A stretch of 64,000 nt of DNA from Psychrobacillus glaciei (lineage in GTDB: Bacteria; Bacillota; Bacilli; Bacillales_A; Planococcaceae): assembly GCF_008973485.1 (NCBI RefSeq), contig NZ_CP031223.1:1674001-1738000 (forward strand), given 5' to 3'. The position numbers were made by a program, and so were the translations under genes. How positions within the stretch are numbered: the stretch's first letter is position 1; each line of letters opens with the position of its first letter. Shown here one piece after another: positions 21,345 through 64,000 of this stretch. Under the pieces are notes generated by a model that was not told where the DNA came from, ran no database searches, and was given only the letters and a program-made list of their open reading frames with translations.

Positions 21345-21545
21345 CTCTTTATAAATCGATGTGATTTCCGCTATAGGCGGACGCTTTCCGTGGGGTGAGC
21401 GATGAGCCCTCACTGCCGCATTCGCGTTGTCCCATCTGTCTCACACAGGAACAAAGGCTAAGAGCGCCACATGATGTGGAAACGCCTTCGTGACCAACAT
21501 CCTGTTGGCCACCTGTCGTTCAAATCAATAAATTAAGTATTGTTC
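21345..21545 (+). repeat. Family B GC-rich intergenic repeat, divergent copy
   Basis: Contains the family B core GATTTCCGCTATAGGCGGAC followed by GCTTTCCGTGGGG and GAGCGATGAGCC, then CATCTGTCTC. It is more GC-rich than its surroundings. The 3' half differs from the copies at 30.3, 30.7 and 42.2 kb. The following 21546-21762 shows no gene or recognisable signal. Confidence 0.65.
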
Positions 21546-30311: not shown

Positions 30312-30490
30312 GCGTCGTAAGAAACTTGCCGCTGGGATTTTCGCTGCAGGGCGGACGCCTTCCACCGGGTGAGCGATGAGCCTTCACCGCCGCTACGCGT
30401 TCGTTGTGAAGTCTCATTTGCCCACTCATCCGGTAGGAGTCGCCGCCCTGTCGCTACAATCCCAAGTAAACTTGCTAACTATTCGGTAAT
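30312..30490 (+). repeat. Family B GC-rich intergenic repeat, forward copy
   Basis: Runs from AAAATGCGTC through CGCTGGGATTTTCGCTGC, GGGTGAGCGATGAGCC, CTCATCCGGTAGGAGTCGCC and ends in TTGCTAACTATTCGGTAATG. It is GC-rich in an AT-rich gap. The reverse complement of 30695-30870 follows the same order, so the two form a divergent inverted pair. Confidence 0.8.
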
Positions 30491-54678: not shown

Positions 54679-56723
54679 CACTTCCTTGGTTTAATTATGA
54701 AGCAATGAATAAAATAAATATTAACCCAAAAATGGGAATTACGTCAACTATTACTCCTGATTTTCAACCGATTGACGAGGTAATGAAAGAAGGCGGTGAC
54801 AATACTTTTAATTCTGATATTACAGTAGGTACTGTTGAAGTTGTTAAAATGGATGATTTGAGTAAAAGTATCTAATGAAAGGAAAGGCTTCAAAAGTCTA
54901 AAAAGATTTATTTTTACACAAAAAGTATAGCTGAAATTTCTAGTATCAATGAACGGACAGGTTCCTTTTTCGCTATCGAAAAACAAGGAACAACTTATAA
55001 AAGTGGAAAAATATAAGTACAAAAAAACCAATCTAAATAAAAAGAGAATTCAACACGAACATACAGTAAAAACGAAGAACAAACAGATGTTACACATGAA
55101 TGATTTCTAAATGTTTTTGAAACTAACTATTCTAATGTGCCAAATAAATATGCAGAAGTACATTCGAAAACGATTAAAATTCCTTTCTCTACTTTCTCGG
55201 AAATTTATAATTTCCTTCATCGTCCAATTTTAAACAGTTCGGTTGTTGCATATGAAACTATAGAAAATCGCCAAATGGAAACCGTGGAAGAGCTGAGGGC
55301 AGTTTCTCAATCTGAACAAAATCTCGAAGTGGAAAATTTTATAGAGAGTGATACTGCTGATTCCAACTTAGACGATAGTAATATGACTATCCTTGAAGTT
55401 AGTCATACAAATGAGACTACTAATTCTAGCAGCGTGATTGGCGCTGATGAAATAGATCACCCACAAATAGAAATTGTGATAGAACAGAAGGAAATGTCTC
55501 AGTCTATAAATTATCATGAAATTGAATATATATCAAAGGGTGATAATTCTTTAAATAAATTAAATAATGGAAGTATAGCTGATTTTCGTATAAATGAATC
55601 CTCTGAAATAAGAAATGTAAATGAGCCAAGTAAACATGCACAGTTAAACTCAAAAACGATAAAACTACCATTTTCCACTTTCTCGAGAATTTATAATTTC
55701 CATCATTCTCCAATAATAAGGAAAACAGCTGCTGCAGATGAAATTGAAAAAGATATTCAAATGAAAGCTGTGGTAGAACGAGGTGCAGTTTCTCACTCTG
55801 AGCATAATATTGAAGTGGAAAATATTGAGGAAAGAGATACTTTTGAAGATGATTTAGTTGATGGAATTATTATTAATTTTGAACCCAGCGACGCAAATGA
55901 GCAGATGAAATATAAACGAGAACGTTCATAAACGATAAAACTTCCGTTCTCCACTTTCTCGAAAATTTATAAATCCCTTCATCCTCCAATTCCAAGAAGC
56001 GCTGTTGCTACAGATGACTCGAAAGAAAATCATCAAATGGAAGCTGTGGTAGAACAGGGAGCAGTTTCTGAGATTGGAAAAATCGTCAAATTGGAAAATA
56101 TTGAGGAAAGTGGTACTACTGATGTCAGTTTTGATGATAGAATTAACATTAATCTTGAAAGTATTCATGTGAACGAAGTTCCGCTTAATCCGCCAGCAAG
56201 TGAAATTAAGCGAGTGTTCAAGGGTGTATTTCTGACGCAATGTAAACTTGTTCCTGTACAATTTGGAGTAGAAACATGCCCAGGGGTACGTGAAGTTACT
56301 AGAGATAAATTGTTTTTAGAAGGTTTTATTCGCAAAGATATTGAATATACTACAACGAATTGCAATGGATTTATTCGTGATCGAATTGCTACTGTTCCAT
56401 TTTCTGGATTTGCAGAACTGACGGCTAATGATTTTCTCCTGTTCCCTACTTTAGGAGGTTCTTCAGAAAGTAGATCCCGATTTATTTAACCCTAATAACA
56501 GTGATATTCCTCGCCTAGATAAATTCTTCTTCGAAAATAGTATGTTTTATAATGAGCAGTCATATTGGAGTTAATTAGTGCAAATTTCTTTGAACTTGAT
56601 TTTTCTCCATGTCCTGTAAAAGTTGGCGAATCGTTTAGTAATCTAGGTGAAAAAATCGTAGTAGATCTTACACTTAAAGTATTACAATTAAGAAAAGTAA
56701 GATTTGCTGCATTAGGTAACTGA
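54675..56723 (+). pseudogene. Broken repeat-containing, probable spore-surface protein gene
   Basis: A strong AAGGAGGG site precedes ATG 54675. The same phase continues to 56489, interrupted by stops at 54873, 54876, 55014, 55038, 55101 and 55929. It then shifts frame near 56460 and near 56575 to end at TGA 56721. The motif KTIK(I/L)PFSTFS-x-IYNF recurs at 55167, 55653 and 55929; in the last, the Lys codon AAA has become TAA. Acidic linkers separate the repeats. The C-terminal part (EGFIRKDIEYTT, VPFSGFAELT, then VDLTLKVLQLRKV) recalls SPOCS-like spore-coat proteins; that is recall only. Coding status of 54876-55136 is inferred. Confidence 0.7.
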
Positions 56724-56981: not shown

Positions 56982-58615
56982 TTACCAAAATTTATAACCT
57001 TTAGATACCGGTGGGACATTTTGGATTATTTCGATAACTGGAATTGTATATGCAAATAATATTAAAGCAATACAGATAATCAGCCAAATTTTCCAGTTTT
57101 CCAGTGCCATTGGAATTTTTTCAGCATTCTCAGAAACATCATCTACAGGAAACTCTGTTTCTCCTTTAGGAGCAAATCAAAATAAGTTTGCGACAATATA
57201 TAGTACTAATACTATACCGATGAAAAGAATAGAACCCCCAACAGCTTGAGCAATTTGGTAAGGAATCCATTCAGCTGCCTGTGTAGAATCACCATAAGTA
57301 GAAAAAGTAGAACGTCGTGGAGCTCCGAGTAAGCCTACAATATGCATCGCGCCAGACATGATGGACATCCCTACTGCCCATACAATCGCTTGGATAATAG
57401 CAAGGCGGTTCATTTGTTTCGTTAAAATTCTTCCAGTAAGATGTGGGATTAACCAATAGGCCGCTCCAAAGAAAGTTAACATAACTGTAGTTGCTACTGT
57501 CAGATGGAAATGACCTGTTACCCAAACTGTATTATGAATTAGTTGGTTCATTTGATGAGAAGCATTAATAATACCCCCAGCACTGGCTGCGATAAAAGCC
57601 ACCATTCCGATAAAAGGAACCACAAATCGTGCATCTAACCATCCGAATAATTCTTTCCCACCTAAAGCACGACTGCGAATTTCAAATGTAGCAAATAAAG
57701 AAAAAGCAGTTAATAAAGAAGGGATAACAACCATTAAAGTTAATACAACTTGTAGGAATTTCCAAAAAGAGCTAATTCCTGGTGGAATCCTACTGGAATC
57801 GAACACAATAGGAATAACATAAATGACAATCTCGCAAGAGAATCAGAGAAAATTTTTCCGCCAATTACTTTTGAAATGACAACATACCAAATCATATAAG
57901 CAGGTAGTAGCCAAAAGTAAACAAGAGGGTTACCGAAATACCAGAACAAAGTCCGTGAAAGTAATACATCTACTTTATCAACCCAGCCTAAGGACCAAGG
58001 GATAAGTTGGAACACAACTTCAACTGCAACTCCTAATGAACATATAATCCACATTGTTAAATTCACTACAACCATAAAGGTAAGAAGGGGGCTAGGTTGC
58101 CCAGGGTATGCTTTCCGACATTCCATATATTTCAATATTTTACTAACTCCACCTATCCAAGACCCAACAACCACTTAAGCTAAGCCTACGTAGAAAATCC
58201 AGTGGGCTTGTAATGGTGCATAAAACGTATATAATACTGATGCTTTATTAAGTAAAACCATTGTGGAAGCAGCAGCAGTACCAATAGTCATTGTCCAAAA
58301 ACCAATCCAACCTAATAAGCGTTGTTTGTCTGTTAATGTACCAGAAGTTCTACTCACTGCAGCAATTTGAAAACCAAAAATGAAATAAGTGGTTAATATA
58401 AGACCTAGTAAAACGCCGTGCACAGTTAAAATTTGATAATAGGTAATTCCCCAAGGGAGTGTAAATTGACCGGAACGGACTAATGTTTGTAAAAGGCCAC
58501 AAAGCCCGCCTATTGCCAATGCTATAAATGCAACATAGATATGTGCAAGCGCTAATTTTCCATCTCTTTTATCAACTTTGGCAAAGTCTTTTGCTCTATC
58601 TGAAATTGTTGTCAT
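56982..58615 (-). pseudogene. ba3-type cytochrome c oxidase subunit I (decayed)
   Basis: Heme-copper oxidase subunit I, originally about 545 residues with many membrane helices. TVHGVLLG (heme ligand) and HFHLTV are intact. Lesions: a TTA-to-TAA type stop at 58175-58177 inside GLA-VVVGSW; an about 16-base deletion near 57806 that removes the expected HHQFTD (CuB His pair) and shifts frame; a probable Trp-to-TGA stop at 57177-57179 before FAPKGETEFP. The expected GHPLVYFW motif reads GNPLVYFW. It cannot give a functional oxidase. The tail ends at TAA 56982-56984. Confidence 0.85.
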
Positions 58616-58616
58616 T

Positions 58617-59070
58617 TTACTCTACCACCTTTAGCATAGAAGTCATGGTCGCATGCCCAAGTCCACAATATTCGTTACATAATATTAGATACTCGCCAGA
58701 TTTATCAACTGTTGTTACATATTCAGATACATAACCTGGCTCAAGAATCATGTTAATATTTGTACCTGCTACTTGAAACCCATGCACTACATCTTTTGTC
58801 GTTGCAATAAACTTAACTTTTGAACCTAAAGGAACTTCAATTTCAGGAGGATTATAGTAAAATGCTAAAGCAACAAAAACAACCTCGTAATCCCAATCCT
58901 TTCCTTCCACTTTATGAACACCTGGGTTATTGAAAGGGGCAATCTCATCGACTCGCTCAGGATCAACATACACTATTGCACTTGGTGGGTGAGAACCGAA
59001 ATGGAATGCACTAAAACCAACAACTATTAAAAATAAAACAAGTGATCCAATTCCAAATGTTAACCACCAT
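58617..59070 (-). pseudogene. ba3-type cytochrome c oxidase subunit II (5' damaged)
   Basis: A small CuA-bearing subunit. The frame gives a membrane anchor (WWLTFGIGSLVLFLIVVGFS), then YVDPERVDEIAPF, VVHGF and the CuA loop CNEYCGLGHATM, which is intact. AAGGAG at 59079-59074 precedes an ATG at 59070 that is out of phase with this frame; the in-phase codon upstream is a stop. A deletion after the start codon is inferred from the usual MHxHKxE-type N-terminus. A GTG at 58973 could give a fragment lacking the membrane anchor. Confidence 0.75.
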
Positions 59071-59424: not shown

Positions 59425-59877
59425 TTATTCATCAATAGTTAAAATTATTAATAACTCACCAATTCCTGTTATTTCGACAGGAAGTTTAAAAGCGTGTTGG
59501 AAACCAAACAACTTAGTGGTTCCAACGATTACGGTAGGCGGAGTTATATCAATTTCAACTCCATTTCCCGCTACAGAAGTACATAAATTACCCGCAATCA
59601 TATTTCCTAACTCACCAGTAAATGATTCAAGCATTTCTCCCTCTAATGGCATACCAAACATTGTTGCACCAATAGATGAAAAGCATTTTGCGGTGGAATC
59701 TATAATAATTCGTCCTTTTACATCCCCAATAATTCCTATGAGTACGGCCATTTCTTTTTGTTCAAATGGTTGAACCATTAGTGAAGGCGATTTAATTTCC
59801 ATCGGAAGAGGGATTACAGATTTTAATGATTGTATTGTGCCATTCAGTACCGTTTGTATGTGTTTTGACTCACTCAT
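59425..59877 (-). CDS. cheX: CheX-type chemotaxis phosphatase
   Basis: A 150-residue member of the CheC/CheX/FliY phosphatase family. The active-site helix ESFTGELGNMIAGNL carries the E-x2-N pattern used to dephosphorylate CheY-P; only one such site is seen, as in CheX. The C-terminal strands end ITGIGELLIILTIDE. Minus-strand AGATGGAGGGAAAAA lies before the ATG. It stands alone, away from any motility operon. Confidence 0.85.
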   Translation of the reverse strand: MSESKHIQTVLNGTIQSLKSVIPLPMEIKSPSLMVQPFEQKEMAVLIGIIGDVKGRIIIDSTAKCFSSIGATMFGMPLEGEMLESFTGELGNMIAGNLCTSVAGNGVEIDITPPTVIVGTTKLFGFQHAFKLPVEITGIGELLIILTIDE

Positions 59878-60018: not shown

Positions 60019-60108
60019 ATGATAGTTTTATTAATCGGATCGACAATTCTGTTATATACTGGGGTTACAGCATATGTTTTACGTTCTACATCCCCACAAG
60101 CTAAATAA
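60019..60108 (+). CDS. 29-residue single-helix membrane miniprotein
   Basis: GAAAGGACG lies 8 bases before the ATG. The product starts MIVLLIGSTILLYTG, has one hydrophobic helix and a short polar C-terminus (LRSTSPQAK). A strong terminator follows 13 bases after the stop, so the unit is framed like a real gene. I recognise no family. It might be a regulator of a membrane complex, but nothing in the sequence shows a partner. Confidence 0.6.
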   Translation: MIVLLIGSTILLYTGVTAYVLRSTSPQAK

Positions 60109-60121
60109 AATCATTTATCAT

Positions 60122-60174
60122 AGATGACTACATTTGATCTTTTTAAACAAAGACAAATGGAGTCATCTTTTTTT
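60122..60174 (+). terminator. Terminator after the miniprotein gene
   Basis: AGATGACT and CATTTG pair with CAAATG and AGTCATCT with one mismatch, followed by seven T. Confidence 0.85.
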
Positions 60175-60220
60175 GCTATTTTATGTTAATACGCAAGCCC
60201 GTTGTATAAAAAGATTTGTG

Positions 60221-60986
60221 CTCCTGCGCAGGTTCCTCGCAGAAAATATAATGAACGCTTTTGCGTATGAAAAACAGTGCTCCTGCGCGGGCTCGTCGCA
60301 GAAAATATAATGAACGCTTTTGCGTATGAGAAACAGTGCTCCTGCGCGAGCTCGTCGCAGAAAATATAATGAACGCTTTTGCGTATGAGAAACAGTGCTC
60401 CTGCGCGGGCTCGTCGCAGAAAATATAATGAACGCTATTGCGTATGAAAAACAGTGCTCCTGCGCGAGCTCGTCGCAGAAAATATAATGAACGCTATTGC
60501 GTATGAAAAACAGTGCTCCTGCGAAGGTTCCTCGCAGAAAATATAATGAACGCTTTTGCGTATGAAAAACAGTGCTCCTGCGCGAGCTCGTCGCAGAAAA
60601 TATAATGAACGCTTTTGCGTATGAAAAACAGTGCTCCTGCGCGGGCTCGTCGCAGAAAATATAATGAACGCTTTTGCGTATGAAAAACAGTGCTCTTGCG
60701 CGGGCTCGTCGCAGTAAATATAATGAACGCTATTGCGTATGAAAAACAGTGCTCCTGCGAAGGTTCCTCACAGAAAATATAATGAGCGCTTTTGCGTATT
60801 AGAAACAGTGCCCCTGCGAAGGTTCCTCGCAGAAAATATAATGAACGCTTTTGCGTATGAGAAACAGTGCTCCTGCGCGAGCTTGTCGCAGAAAATATAA
60901 TGAACGCTTTTGCGTATGAGAAACAGTGCTCCTGCGCGAGCTCGTCGCAGAAAATATAATGAACGCTTTTGCGTTCATTATATTTT
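60221..60986. repeat. 59-bp tandem repeat array, 13 units
   Basis: Units start at 60221 and every 59 bases to 60929. Each has a CTGCG...CGCAG hairpin, AAAATATAATGAACGC and a CGC-TTTT-GCG turn. Two types of hairpin interior occur (CGAGCTCG or CGGGCTCG, versus AAGGTTCC), with one hybrid first unit. The last unit closes into a perfect 16-bp hairpin. No transposase, coding frame or CRISPR spacer structure is present. 60175-60220 holds no gene. Confidence 0.95.
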
Positions 60987-60990
60987 TGCT
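60951..60990. terminator. Long hairpin closing the 59-bp array
   Basis: 60951-60966 pairs perfectly with 60971-60986 around TTTT; A-rich on one side and T-rich on the other, so it may terminate in either direction. Its left arm is the same sequence found in every array unit. Confidence 0.6.
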
Positions 60991-61035
60991 ATGATGTACA
61001 TATATTGTCGAATTATAAAGGGGAATTATTTTTTA

Positions 61036-64000
61036 ATGGTGAATATAGAAGAGCTCCATATAATAAAAGAACGAAATGCGTTACTTGCAACATTATTCCA
61101 ACAAAATAAAGATGATGAACGTTTTGCAAAAGCAAAATCATTTGCAGAGAAACTAGAAAAAGGGACGTTCACAATTGCATTTGCTGGGCATTTTTCAGCA
61201 GGTAAATCTAGCATGATCAATGCTTTAGTTGATGAACAGTTGCTCCCAACAAGCCCAATTCCCACTTCTGCTAATATTGTAACTGTGCAAAAGACGGATG
61301 AAAATTATGCGCTCGTGCACTTTCTGGATAGAGCACCTGTAAAGTTTTCCGGAGAATATGATATTCAACTAGTTAAAAAATATTCGAAAGATGGGAATAA
61401 CGTTTCTCAAATCGAGATTGGCCATTCCGGATCTCATTTGCCAGAAGGAATTACTGTTATGGATACTCCTGGTGTAGATTCAACAGATGATGCACATCGT
61501 GTTTCGACAGAATCTGCACTTCATCTTGCGGATATCGTGTTCTATGTTATGGATTATAATCATGTTCAGTCTGAACTTAATTTTCAATTTACGAAGCAAT
61601 TACTTCATTATAATGAGAATGTATATTTAATTGTAAACCAAGTTGATAAACATAGAGAAGAAGAATTATCATTTGAAGATTTTAAACAATCAGTTGCGCG
61701 TGCATTTAAAGCATGGGCAGTCGAACCAAAAGATATTTTCTACACTTCTTTAAAAGATAAAAATTTTATTCATAATGACTTTTCAAAAGTGCAACAAATT
61801 GTCCAACATTCCATTCAAAATAAAGATGATTATTTTCTTACCGCTGCTAATGCTACTTTAAAGAAACTATCGGATGAACATCGAAATTTTTTAGAGGATG
61901 AAAAAGCACTATGCTTAGAGGCGTTTGAAGACCAATTAACAGAAGAAGAATGGGTTAATAAAGAAGAGATAAAAGAACAACTAGAAATATCACAAAAGCA
62001 AACAGAGCTTCAGGATATTAGCCTTTGGAAAAAAACTTTCGAAGATCAGCGGAAAGTTATGTTAGAAAATGCCTCGATTATGCCATATGAAATGAGGGAT
62101 TTCCTTAAGTTATACGCAGAAGGCATGCAGAGTTCTTTTAAAGTTGGATTTATCGGAAGTAAAAAGAAAACGGAAGAAGAAAGACAAAGAAGGTTAGAAG
62201 AGGCAAGACAATACCTCGAAAAAGTTATTTCTACTAATATTTCTGTTCATCTAAAACAATTGATGAAAGGTATGCTAAAAGATGTTTCTCTATTAACTTC
62301 TGAACGAACGAATGAAATAGACGAAAGAGCATTTGAAATTGCATCATCACTCATTAGTGGGCCATTACATGATGGTGCAAGTACAACGGGAGATGCGCTT
62401 CAACATTTTGCTAATCGTGTTCGAGATGCTGTTATTCGATTTTTTGTTGTGGAAACTGATAGTTGGAAAGAAAAAACAATACGTTTTATGCATGAACACC
62501 CACTAGAAGAAACAGAAATGATTGAACAAAAAACGCAAATTTTGAATGGTAAGATGTTGGCAATTCATGCCATAGAAGAAATAGATCTTAAACTTCATTC
62601 GTTTGAACAAGCGATTAAAACGCCTGTCTTAGCGCTGAGAAATGACCGCGATCAATTGATGTTGGAATGGGAAAATGAACGACATATTTTCAGGAATTCT
62701 ATAACAGAGTTTGATCCGTCATCAGAGGAAAAGGAACAGAAGATTGAACAAACGTCATTTACGGAAAAAGTTGAGTCAAATGAGATAATACTTCCTGCAG
62801 ATGCTGTTTTAAAAAGAGCAAATAGAATTGGAGAAGTATTAAAACAATTACCAGATTTCCGGGAAGCAGCTGACATTATTAAGCGAAAAGCAAAACGGGT
62901 AGAAAACCAACAATTTACAATTGCTTTATTTGGAGCATTTAGTGCTGGTAAATCAAGCTTTTCAAATGCATTAATGGGAGCAAATGTATTGCCTGTCTCA
63001 CCGAATCCAACAACTGCTGCAATAAATAAAATTCATCCGGTTTCAGAAAAACATCCACATAACACGGCAGATGTTGCATTCAAAACAAAAGAACAATTAT
63101 TAGTTGATGTAGCCTTTGCTTATAGCCAGTTGGGAATTATGGTTATGTCTTTGGAAGATGCCTTTGATCAGGCGAGTATTGTCATGAATCAAGCTGTTGC
63201 AGAAGAAGTGCATAAATCTTTTATTATCGCTTTTTATAAAGGTTACCCAACTTTCCAACATCAACTAGGTAAAGTGCTTCGAGTATCAGGTGAAGAGTTT
63301 GGAAAGTATGTGGCAGAAGAATCCAGAAGTTGTTTTGTCGATTTCATTGACTTTTATTATGACTGTGAATTGACGAGACTCGGAGTCACATTAGTGGATA
63401 CACCAGGAGCAGATTCTATCAATGCGCGACATACTGGGGTTGCGTTTGATTATATTCGAAATGCAGACGCCGTCCTGTTTGTTACGTATTTTAATCATGC
63501 ATTTGCAAAAGCAGACCGAGAGTTTTTAATACAGCTTGGGCGCGTGAAAGATGCTTTTGAACTGGATAAAATGTTTTTTGTTGTGAATGCCATTGATCTT
63601 GCTGACACGGTAGAGGAAGCAAGTCTTGTGAAGCAATATGTGCAAGAGGAACTACAACGTTTCGGTATTCGGTTCCCAAGAGTATACGGTGTATCTAGCT
63701 TACAAGCATTAAAAGAAAAGGTTGAATCTACTACATTACATGAAGGAATGGTGCAATTTGAGAAAGAATTCCTTCGATTTTTAGATAAGGACTTGAAACA
63801 AATTGCAGTAACCTCATTAGAGGAAGAAGCAACCCGTCAGCAGACTAAATTGTTTACATTAATCGAACAAACGGAAGCAAATCTTGCGAGAAAAGATGCA
63901 AGGCTACAAGAATTGCGTGAGCAAGAGCAAAATATTCGTAAGCGCTTTGCAGGCTCCATGTCTGCTATTACAGCGAAAGAGGCAAACCAAGAGCTTGAAA
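61036..64000 (+). CDS. dynA: Bacterial dynamin DynA (YpbR), 5' part
   Basis: A large membrane-remodelling GTPase with two dynamin modules in one chain; in B. subtilis it helps membrane fusion and resists membrane damage and phage. The 988 codons visible have no stop. The first GTPase has GHFSAGKSSMINAL, DTPGVDS and NQVDK; the second, near residue 630, has FGAFSAGKSSFSNAL and DTPGADS. Coiled-coil helices lie between and after. AAAGGGG precedes ATG 61036. The B. subtilis protein is about 1190 residues, so the last fifth is outside the window. Confidence 0.95.
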   Translation, partial: MVNIEELHIIKERNALLATLFQQNKDDERFAKAKSFAEKLEKGTFTIAFAGHFSAGKSSMINALVDEQLLPTSPIPTSANIVTVQKTDENYALVHFLDRAPVKFSGEYDIQLVKKYSKDGNNVSQIEIGHSGSHLPEGITVMDTPGVDSTDDAHRVSTESALHLADIVFYVMDYNHVQSELNFQFTKQLLHYNENVYLIVNQVDKHREEELSFEDFKQSVARAFKAWAVEPKDIFYTSLKDKNFIHNDFSKVQQIVQHSIQNKDDYFLTAANATLKKLSDEHRNFLEDEKALCLEAFEDQLTEEEWVNKEEIKEQLEISQKQTELQDISLWKKTFEDQRKVMLENASIMPYEMRDFLKLYAEGMQSSFKVGFIGSKKKTEEERQRRLEEARQYLEKVISTNISVHLKQLMKGMLKDVSLLTSERTNEIDERAFEIASSLISGPLHDGASTTGDALQHFANRVRDAVIRFFVVETDSWKEKTIRFMHEHPLEETEMIEQKTQILNGKMLAIHAIEEIDLKLHSFEQAIKTPVLALRNDRDQLMLEWENERHIFRNSITEFDPSSEEKEQKIEQTSFTEKVESNEIILPADAVLKRANRIGEVLKQLPDFREAADIIKRKAKRVENQQFTIALFGAFSAGKSSFSNALMGANVLPVSPNPTTAAINKIHPVSEKHPHNTADVAFKTKEQLLVDVAFAYSQLGIMVMSLEDAFDQASIVMNQAVAEEVHKSFIIAFYKGYPTFQHQLGKVLRVSGEEFGKYVAEESRSCFVDFIDFYYDCELTRLGVTLVDTPGADSINARHTGVAFDYIRNADAVLFVTYFNHAFAKADREFLIQLGRVKDAFELDKMFFVVNAIDLADTVEEASLVKQYVQEELQRFGIRFPRVYGVSSLQALKEKVESTTLHEGMVQFEKEFLRFLDKDLKQIAVTSLEEEATRQQTKLFTLIEQTEANLARKDARLQELREQEQNIRKRFAGSMSAITAKEANQELE

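Follow-up and report, generated by a model that had tools for sequence, protein, structure and literature searches.

The 59-bp repeats in front of the dynamin-like gene dynA of Psychrobacillus glaciei are probably the product of local tandem amplification. The amplified module, here called HP23, is a REP-like palindrome that is dispersed in the genome and most likely selfish or neutral rather than a control device for dynA. What was seen at first as a single odd array thereby becomes a member of a family with occupied and empty sites, in which the movement and growth of a small palindrome are directly testable. We regard the HP23 module and its nested insertions as more interesting than the dynA array itself.

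Units of the dynA array

The window analysed is a stretch of 64,000 nt of the P. glaciei genome, and all positions refer to it. Thirteen units of 59 bp were found at 60218-60984, in front of dynA. This array of thirteen copies, first reported in a preliminary description made from the sequence, was recovered by Tandem Repeats Finder (60218-60974, period 59, 12.8 copies, 93% matches, 0 indels) and by direct reading. The features of the locus are as follows.

59425-59877, minus strand: CheX-like chemotaxis phosphatase gene, the upstream neighbour, divergent from the small ORF (Pfam CheX 47.7 bits, cut-off 27)
60019-60108, plus strand: small ORF encoding 29 aa (MIVLLIGSTILLYTGVTAYVLRSTSPQAK); by eye, several congeners have comparable ORFs before dynA
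60122-60175, plus strand: hairpin with a T-run, terminator-like, downstream of the small ORF (predicted RNA folding energy -19.7 kcal/mol, z -6.7)
60218-60925, plus strand: units 1-12, each an HP23 palindrome and a 36-nt linker
60219-60241, plus strand: first of 13 HP23 palindromes, 23 bp, one every 59 bp, the last at 60927-60949
60245-60273, minus strand: first of 11 promoter-like sites (TTTTCA or TTCTCA, 17 nt, TATATT), one each in 11 of the 13 units, the last at 60894-60922
60926-60984, plus strand: unit 13, in which HP23 is followed by the terminal hairpin up to and including most of its right arm
60947-60989, no strand assigned: terminal hairpin, GCA(G)AAAATATAATGAACGC-TTTT-GCGTTCATTATATTTTTGC, with a perfect core of 16 bp; the hairpin foot and the TGC of the extended -10 of dynA overlap
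60987-60995, plus strand: extended -10 of dynA, TGCTATGAT, conserved as TGnTATGAT in 17 of 19 species
61036-63999, plus strand: dynA, bacterial dynamin-like protein, running past the window end (Pfam Dynamin_N 212 bits)

Canu is an assembler for long reads. An assembly artefact is an unlikely source of the array, because the published assembly of Psychrobacillus strain PB01 is described as a Canu assembly at 386-fold coverage (PMC9728334). An Rfam search of the array gave only matches far below the gathering scores, and a plasmid and phage search gave none.

The first palindrome of each unit is HP23, with the consensus TGCTCCTGCGCAAGCTCGTCGCA. Every 36-nt linker carries part of the terminal hairpin, from its left arm through the loop to the fourth base of its right arm, in line with the earlier idea that half of this hairpin had been amplified; unit 13 departs from the other units on entering the right arm (direct reading). 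ATATAATG is present in all 13 units. At up to three mismatches the consensus search found ten of the thirteen palindromes, and these ten matches in the window compare with none in 100 dinucleotide-preserving shuffles. The remaining three palindromes, in units 6, 10 and 11, have the interior AAGGTTCC. This bears out the two alternative interiors described before, one being the CGAG/CGGG form of nine units (one of them CGAGCTTG) and the other the AAGGTTCC form of three. Among the 19 genus genomes, searched at up to two mismatches, the AAGGTTCC form is limited to the dynA array, and it therefore arose inside the array or was lost elsewhere. Unit 1 reads CAGGTTCC and had been taken for a hybrid of the two forms, which is not required, as this interior is intermediate between the genome-wide consensus CAAGCTCG and AAGGTTCC.

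The two hairpins claimed for each unit hold in part. The second has a stem of only 4 bp, and the first, HP23 with its predicted stem of 6–7 pairs, folds little better than shuffled sequence (z -0.7 to -1.2 for the HP23 stretch alone against its shuffles).

Units 1-12 differ in 14 columns, of which seven are informative. All four combinations occur in six pairs of variable columns, which indicates exchange between units or block duplication, and the difference between units does not rise steadily with distance. The exchange among units that had been suspected is thus supported, and the units appear to exchange or to duplicate in blocks, with recurrent mutation as the alternative.

The terminal hairpin and the dynA promoter

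The final unit completes a perfect 16-bp hairpin at 60951-60986, as originally noted; allowing for one bulge, the stem reaches 19 pairs at 60947-60989 (z about -9). The full hairpin occurs once only, and the linkers hold partial copies of it. It had been thought to be the ancestral structure and is probably older than the P. glaciei array, to judge from the sequence of the congener G008, where the GAACGCTTTTGCGTTC core recurs at the corresponding place and four pairs of the outer stem have changed with compensation.

We searched the 1.5 kb upstream of dynA in 19 species for HP23 at up to five substitutions. There are 13 units in P. glaciei (G000), four in G008 and three, reversed, in G015; none were found within this distance in the other 16 species. 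The arrays of P. glaciei and G008 are alike in place, orientation and hairpin core, from which we infer that the two sites may share a common descent. In both species HP23 stands downstream of the small-ORF terminator and upstream of the dynA promoter, and next to it a fold-back hairpin adjoins the extended -10. The G015 array is probably a separate event, because its units lie on the far side of the small-ORF terminator. G018 has the closest DynA (80% identity), yet it has no array and other DNA upstream of the gene, which points to a complicated history of the site. The two species that depart from the conserved extended -10 are G007, which has TGCTATTAT, and G018, in which the motif is absent.

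For DynA itself, the NCBIfam model DynmDynABac scored 646 bits on the 988 aa that the window contains, short of its whole-protein cut-off of 1600. The closest eight named relatives come from seven Psychrobacillus species and one Bacillus sp. (the own genome was possibly left out). A relative of dynA in B. subtilis has been described to give phage resistance (PMC8844932). Upstream, the CheX-like gene scored 69.6 bits on NCBIfam CheX, under the cut-off of 280, and the 29-aa ORF had no NCBIfam match. By eye, several other species have a hairpin and T-run like that at 60122-60175 upstream of dynA; in P. glaciei this hairpin is absent from the list of our simple terminator scan.

Two further features of the window were noticed. 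A cytochrome c oxidase subunit I-like gene at 57177-58615 on the minus strand (by eye) is split into three ORFs by an apparent in-frame stop and a frameshift and could be a real pseudogene or reflect assembly errors; a subunit II-like ORF (58617-58973) adjoins it. On the plus strand, 55137-56489 holds two adjacent hypothetical ORFs, the first with an internal repeat (SKTIK.PFSTF..IYNF).

The preliminary description suggested that the array might insulate or terminate transcription into dynA, or bind a protein; judged from sequence, neither kind of role is favoured. A functional battery of insulators or terminators against read-through or antisense transcription at dynA would explain why so strong a hairpin stands directly at the promoter and why the pairing in G008 has been kept through four compensated changes, and the scan did list promoter-like words on the minus strand in 11 units and terminator-like words in three. 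In total, 14 promoter-like sites were listed against 2.8 expected. Those on the minus strand match the consensus only (9 of 12) and are copies of one repeated word. Terminator-like sites numbered three against 1.2 expected, all on the minus strand in the three AAGGTTCC units. On the plus strand the scan of the units listed no promoters and no terminators, and the same scan of the G008 region listed no terminators. As copies of one sequence each, the minus-strand words are no evidence of function. The small ORF is, moreover, already followed by a terminator-like hairpin, and most of the species searched do without an array at this place. We therefore consider an insulator or terminator battery improbable.

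Since the promoter-like extended -10 (TGnTATGAT) starts at 60987, downstream of the array, the array should lie outside the dynA mRNA. A dedicated dynA function is not supported, because 16 of the 19 species have no array, HP23 is dispersed and the promoter lies beyond the array. The array is most likely incidental for dynA.

Dispersal, insertion and probable amplification of HP23

As had been proposed as a check, we searched the P. glaciei genome for other copies, and the HP23 part of the unit does recur. At up to three mismatches HP23 was found in 40 places (25 forward and 15 reverse, by eye), eight of them exact; ten are in the dynA array and 30 elsewhere, and the reversed-pattern control had no match. 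At up to two mismatches HP23 occurs in 46 of 261 genomes of the family and in four of its 19 genera; many of these copies are exact and the controls gave none. Of 398 genomes sampled across the class, 11 carry HP23, all among the 39 that belong to this family; the 359 from outside the family gave none. The control matched once in this sample, in a single genome. In three other genera, 20 stretches were read and show the same 23 letters, mostly in other contexts, although some in G035 are type B-like (see below) by eye. A literature search gave no description of the HP23 repeat among the titles and abstract starts of the matches listed, and four letter-for-letter forms of HP23 did not occur in the literature text searched.

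The HP23 places are mainly intergenic, 52 of 64 loci being outside any ORF of at least 90 aa. Five of the 53 HP23 groups with an ORF on both sides lie between divergent ORFs, whereas randomly oriented ORFs would give a quarter (p 0.007, a value that assumes random orientation instead of a measured intergenic background and includes orthologues).

In four larger repeat families, HP23 and a short, mostly A-rich tail form an insert of about 31–35 nt. A rough sort by flanks of 65 groups at 64 loci in five Psychrobacillus genomes gave 34 of type A, 14 of type B, four of type D, three of type C, one of both B and D, and nine others, at least one of which (L125) is type A-like by eye. Occupied and empty copies were found in all four families. 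In type A the insert is about 35 nt, present in 30 and absent in 33 of 63 aligned repeats; in type B it is about 33 nt, present in 18 and absent in 16 of 34. These counts are no frequencies, as the empty copies were picked from weaker search hits. Type D repeats of the own genome show presence and absence at one site with an insert of 32 nt, and type C an insert of 31–32 nt against a single empty copy. All these comparisons are between copies of a repeat, not orthologous loci. No consistent target-site duplication was seen at the inserts of types A–D, the ends of which are ambiguous by a few bases. A junction rule with TGC, suggested by types A and C and the dynA site, was rejected because empty copies of types B and D do not obey it.

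The larger repeats show some further variation. Type B copies of G008 (L030, L312-L313) have a second hairpin, TGCACC...GGTGCAG with an AAACATT tail (about 36 nt), at a fixed site; this module resembles HP23 at both ends. The window has short matches to type B repeat ends at 30330-30462 and 21363-21390, both HP23-free. Type A has about 100 matches in one genome, and a longer variant, with about 60 additional nt, was seen in L102, L107, L112 and similar loci. Rfam RF01690 (Bacillaceae-1) matched three of 15 loci given (L029 twice, L035 and L037), all holding HP23, which raises the question whether RF01690 is itself a dispersed repeat. An identity of type A with RF01690 was rejected at the Rfam threshold used, as ten type A loci gave no match.

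Besides the dynA array, eleven of the loci examined have at least three recognised HP23 units. Their linkers are 8–18 nt, apart from one longer gap that conceals another unit, and are alike within an array and different between arrays, which indicates local duplication. The least regular linkers are those of the G008 dynA array. The 36-nt linker of P. glaciei is unusual among groups of three or more, and two-copy groups with gaps of 34–55 nt exist. Arrays of 11 and 12 recognised units occur outside dynA, the latter, with mostly 35-bp steps, at a G035 locus in another genus.

Such arrays, and many exact copies of a 23-bp sequence across four genera, might likewise be expected of binding sites for a DNA-binding protein, the copy number of which would tune dynA. 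Many HP23 copies lie inside other repeats, and the core AAGGTTCC or CAGGTTCC in four units of the dynA array would alter a binding site, so we regard this explanation as very unlikely.

A second alternative is that HP23 is a REP moved in trans by a RAYT-like Y1 transposase and that the array is a REP cluster. A Y1 gene is found in 18 of the 19 genus genomes (one to three matches each); the P. glaciei copy is RAYT-like, with 74.9 bits on NCBIfam REP_Tyr_transpos, just under the cut-off of 80, and tandem clusters of REPINs that include flanks have been described in Pseudomonas (PMC3116915). Only two of 27 Y1 loci have an HP23-like copy within 1.5 kb of the gene, and a flanking RAYT was accordingly not adopted as the mover of HP23, although action in trans is possible. 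Perfect hairpins stand beside the Y1 gene in three of four loci examined (L059, L062 and L064), none of them HP23. The two do not track each other, as G003 has HP23 without Y1 whereas G002 and G009 have Y1 without HP23 (at up to two mismatches), and HP23 shows no GTAG tag. No transposase could be tied to HP23, and we hold movement by Y1 to be doubtful, though less so than the roles in transcription or protein binding.

Perfect inverted repeats of at least 14 bp that start within 12 bp of the 3' end of a terminal HP23 were found in six of 93 distinct cases (two of them orthologues), compared with none of 93 on the 5' side and six of 1860 random windows in the same loci. Fisher tests gave p 7e-6 against the random windows (8e-5 with orthologues counted once) and 0.03 against the 5' side. 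The p values serve as a guide, as the loci are not a random draw and the random windows may contain some of the same inverted repeats. The G015 inverted repeat includes part of HP23, as expected of a fold-back copy.

Taken together, our preferred explanation is amplification of a dispersed module. HP23 is scattered through Psychrobacillus and some related genera, where larger MITE-like repeats very often contain it. Duplication in P. glaciei would then have produced 13 units, each running from HP23 into the beginning of the hairpin's right arm; slippage or unequal exchange at hairpins is the probable mechanism, with conversion or block duplication among the units. The repeats are most likely selfish or neutral, and weak termination in both directions at the dynA promoter is a possible role of the terminal hairpin. 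Against this explanation speak the failure to tie a transposase to HP23, the site in G018, and insert ends that are ambiguous and show no target duplication. Letter-identical copies in four genera might instead reflect selection on the HP23 sequence, and the compensated stem changes between P. glaciei and G008 would also fit a function of the hairpin.

Beyond this, we suggest tentatively, as a bolder proposal that is somewhat doubtful, that HP23 and its tail are a very small mobile module, with no dedicated transposase found and no target duplication, which inserts in several unrelated larger repeats, is found letter for letter in four genera and grows into arrays. Some 3' ends of such arrays would fold back by template switching into terminator-like hairpins, here on the dynA promoter. 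Short repeats, template switching and the origin of terminator-like hairpins at promoters may be linked in this way.

Comparison with known systems

The dynA array is head-to-tail with signs of unit exchange, like a bacterial VNTR or minisatellite. Unlike that of a VNTR, its unit derives from a dispersed palindrome. With one genome per species, the unit numbers compared here (13, four, three reversed and none) differ between species. The Bcr1 and Bhal families of Bacillaceae, described as intergenic stem-loop repeats of 70–170 bp (PMC2267715), are like the larger host repeats of HP23 in this description. HP23 differs from Bcr1, Bhal and RF01690 repeats in being a far smaller, optional insert in such repeats.

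The CGTC-tagged REPs, among them dRS3 of Neisseria and RPE of Rickettsia, are likewise short palindromes without a dedicated flanking transposase and are clustered in some species (PMC3733652). In that description they have CGTC at one end, a CCA-like unpaired tail and a stem of 8–9 pairs (PMC3733652), whereas HP23 has CGTC inside the palindrome, no CCA tail was seen and the predicted stem is shorter.

There is a likeness in habit to the GTAG REPs and REPIN clusters, described as intergenic palindromes of 20–40 bp in tens of copies, with clusters that repeat together with their flanks (PMC3116915, PMC3733652). HP23 is a palindrome within this size range, dispersed and mainly intergenic. It has no GTAG at the stem foot, GCTC standing before the stem instead, and its copies do not generally flank a RAYT gene. 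Unlike GTAG REPs it is often nested inside larger repeats, and the groups that were read are head-to-tail or single rather than the inverted pairs of REPINs, although the fold-back of G015 holds an inverse part of HP23. Thus, HP23 falls outside the GTAG REPs by tag and transposase and is REP-like in its distribution and clustering.
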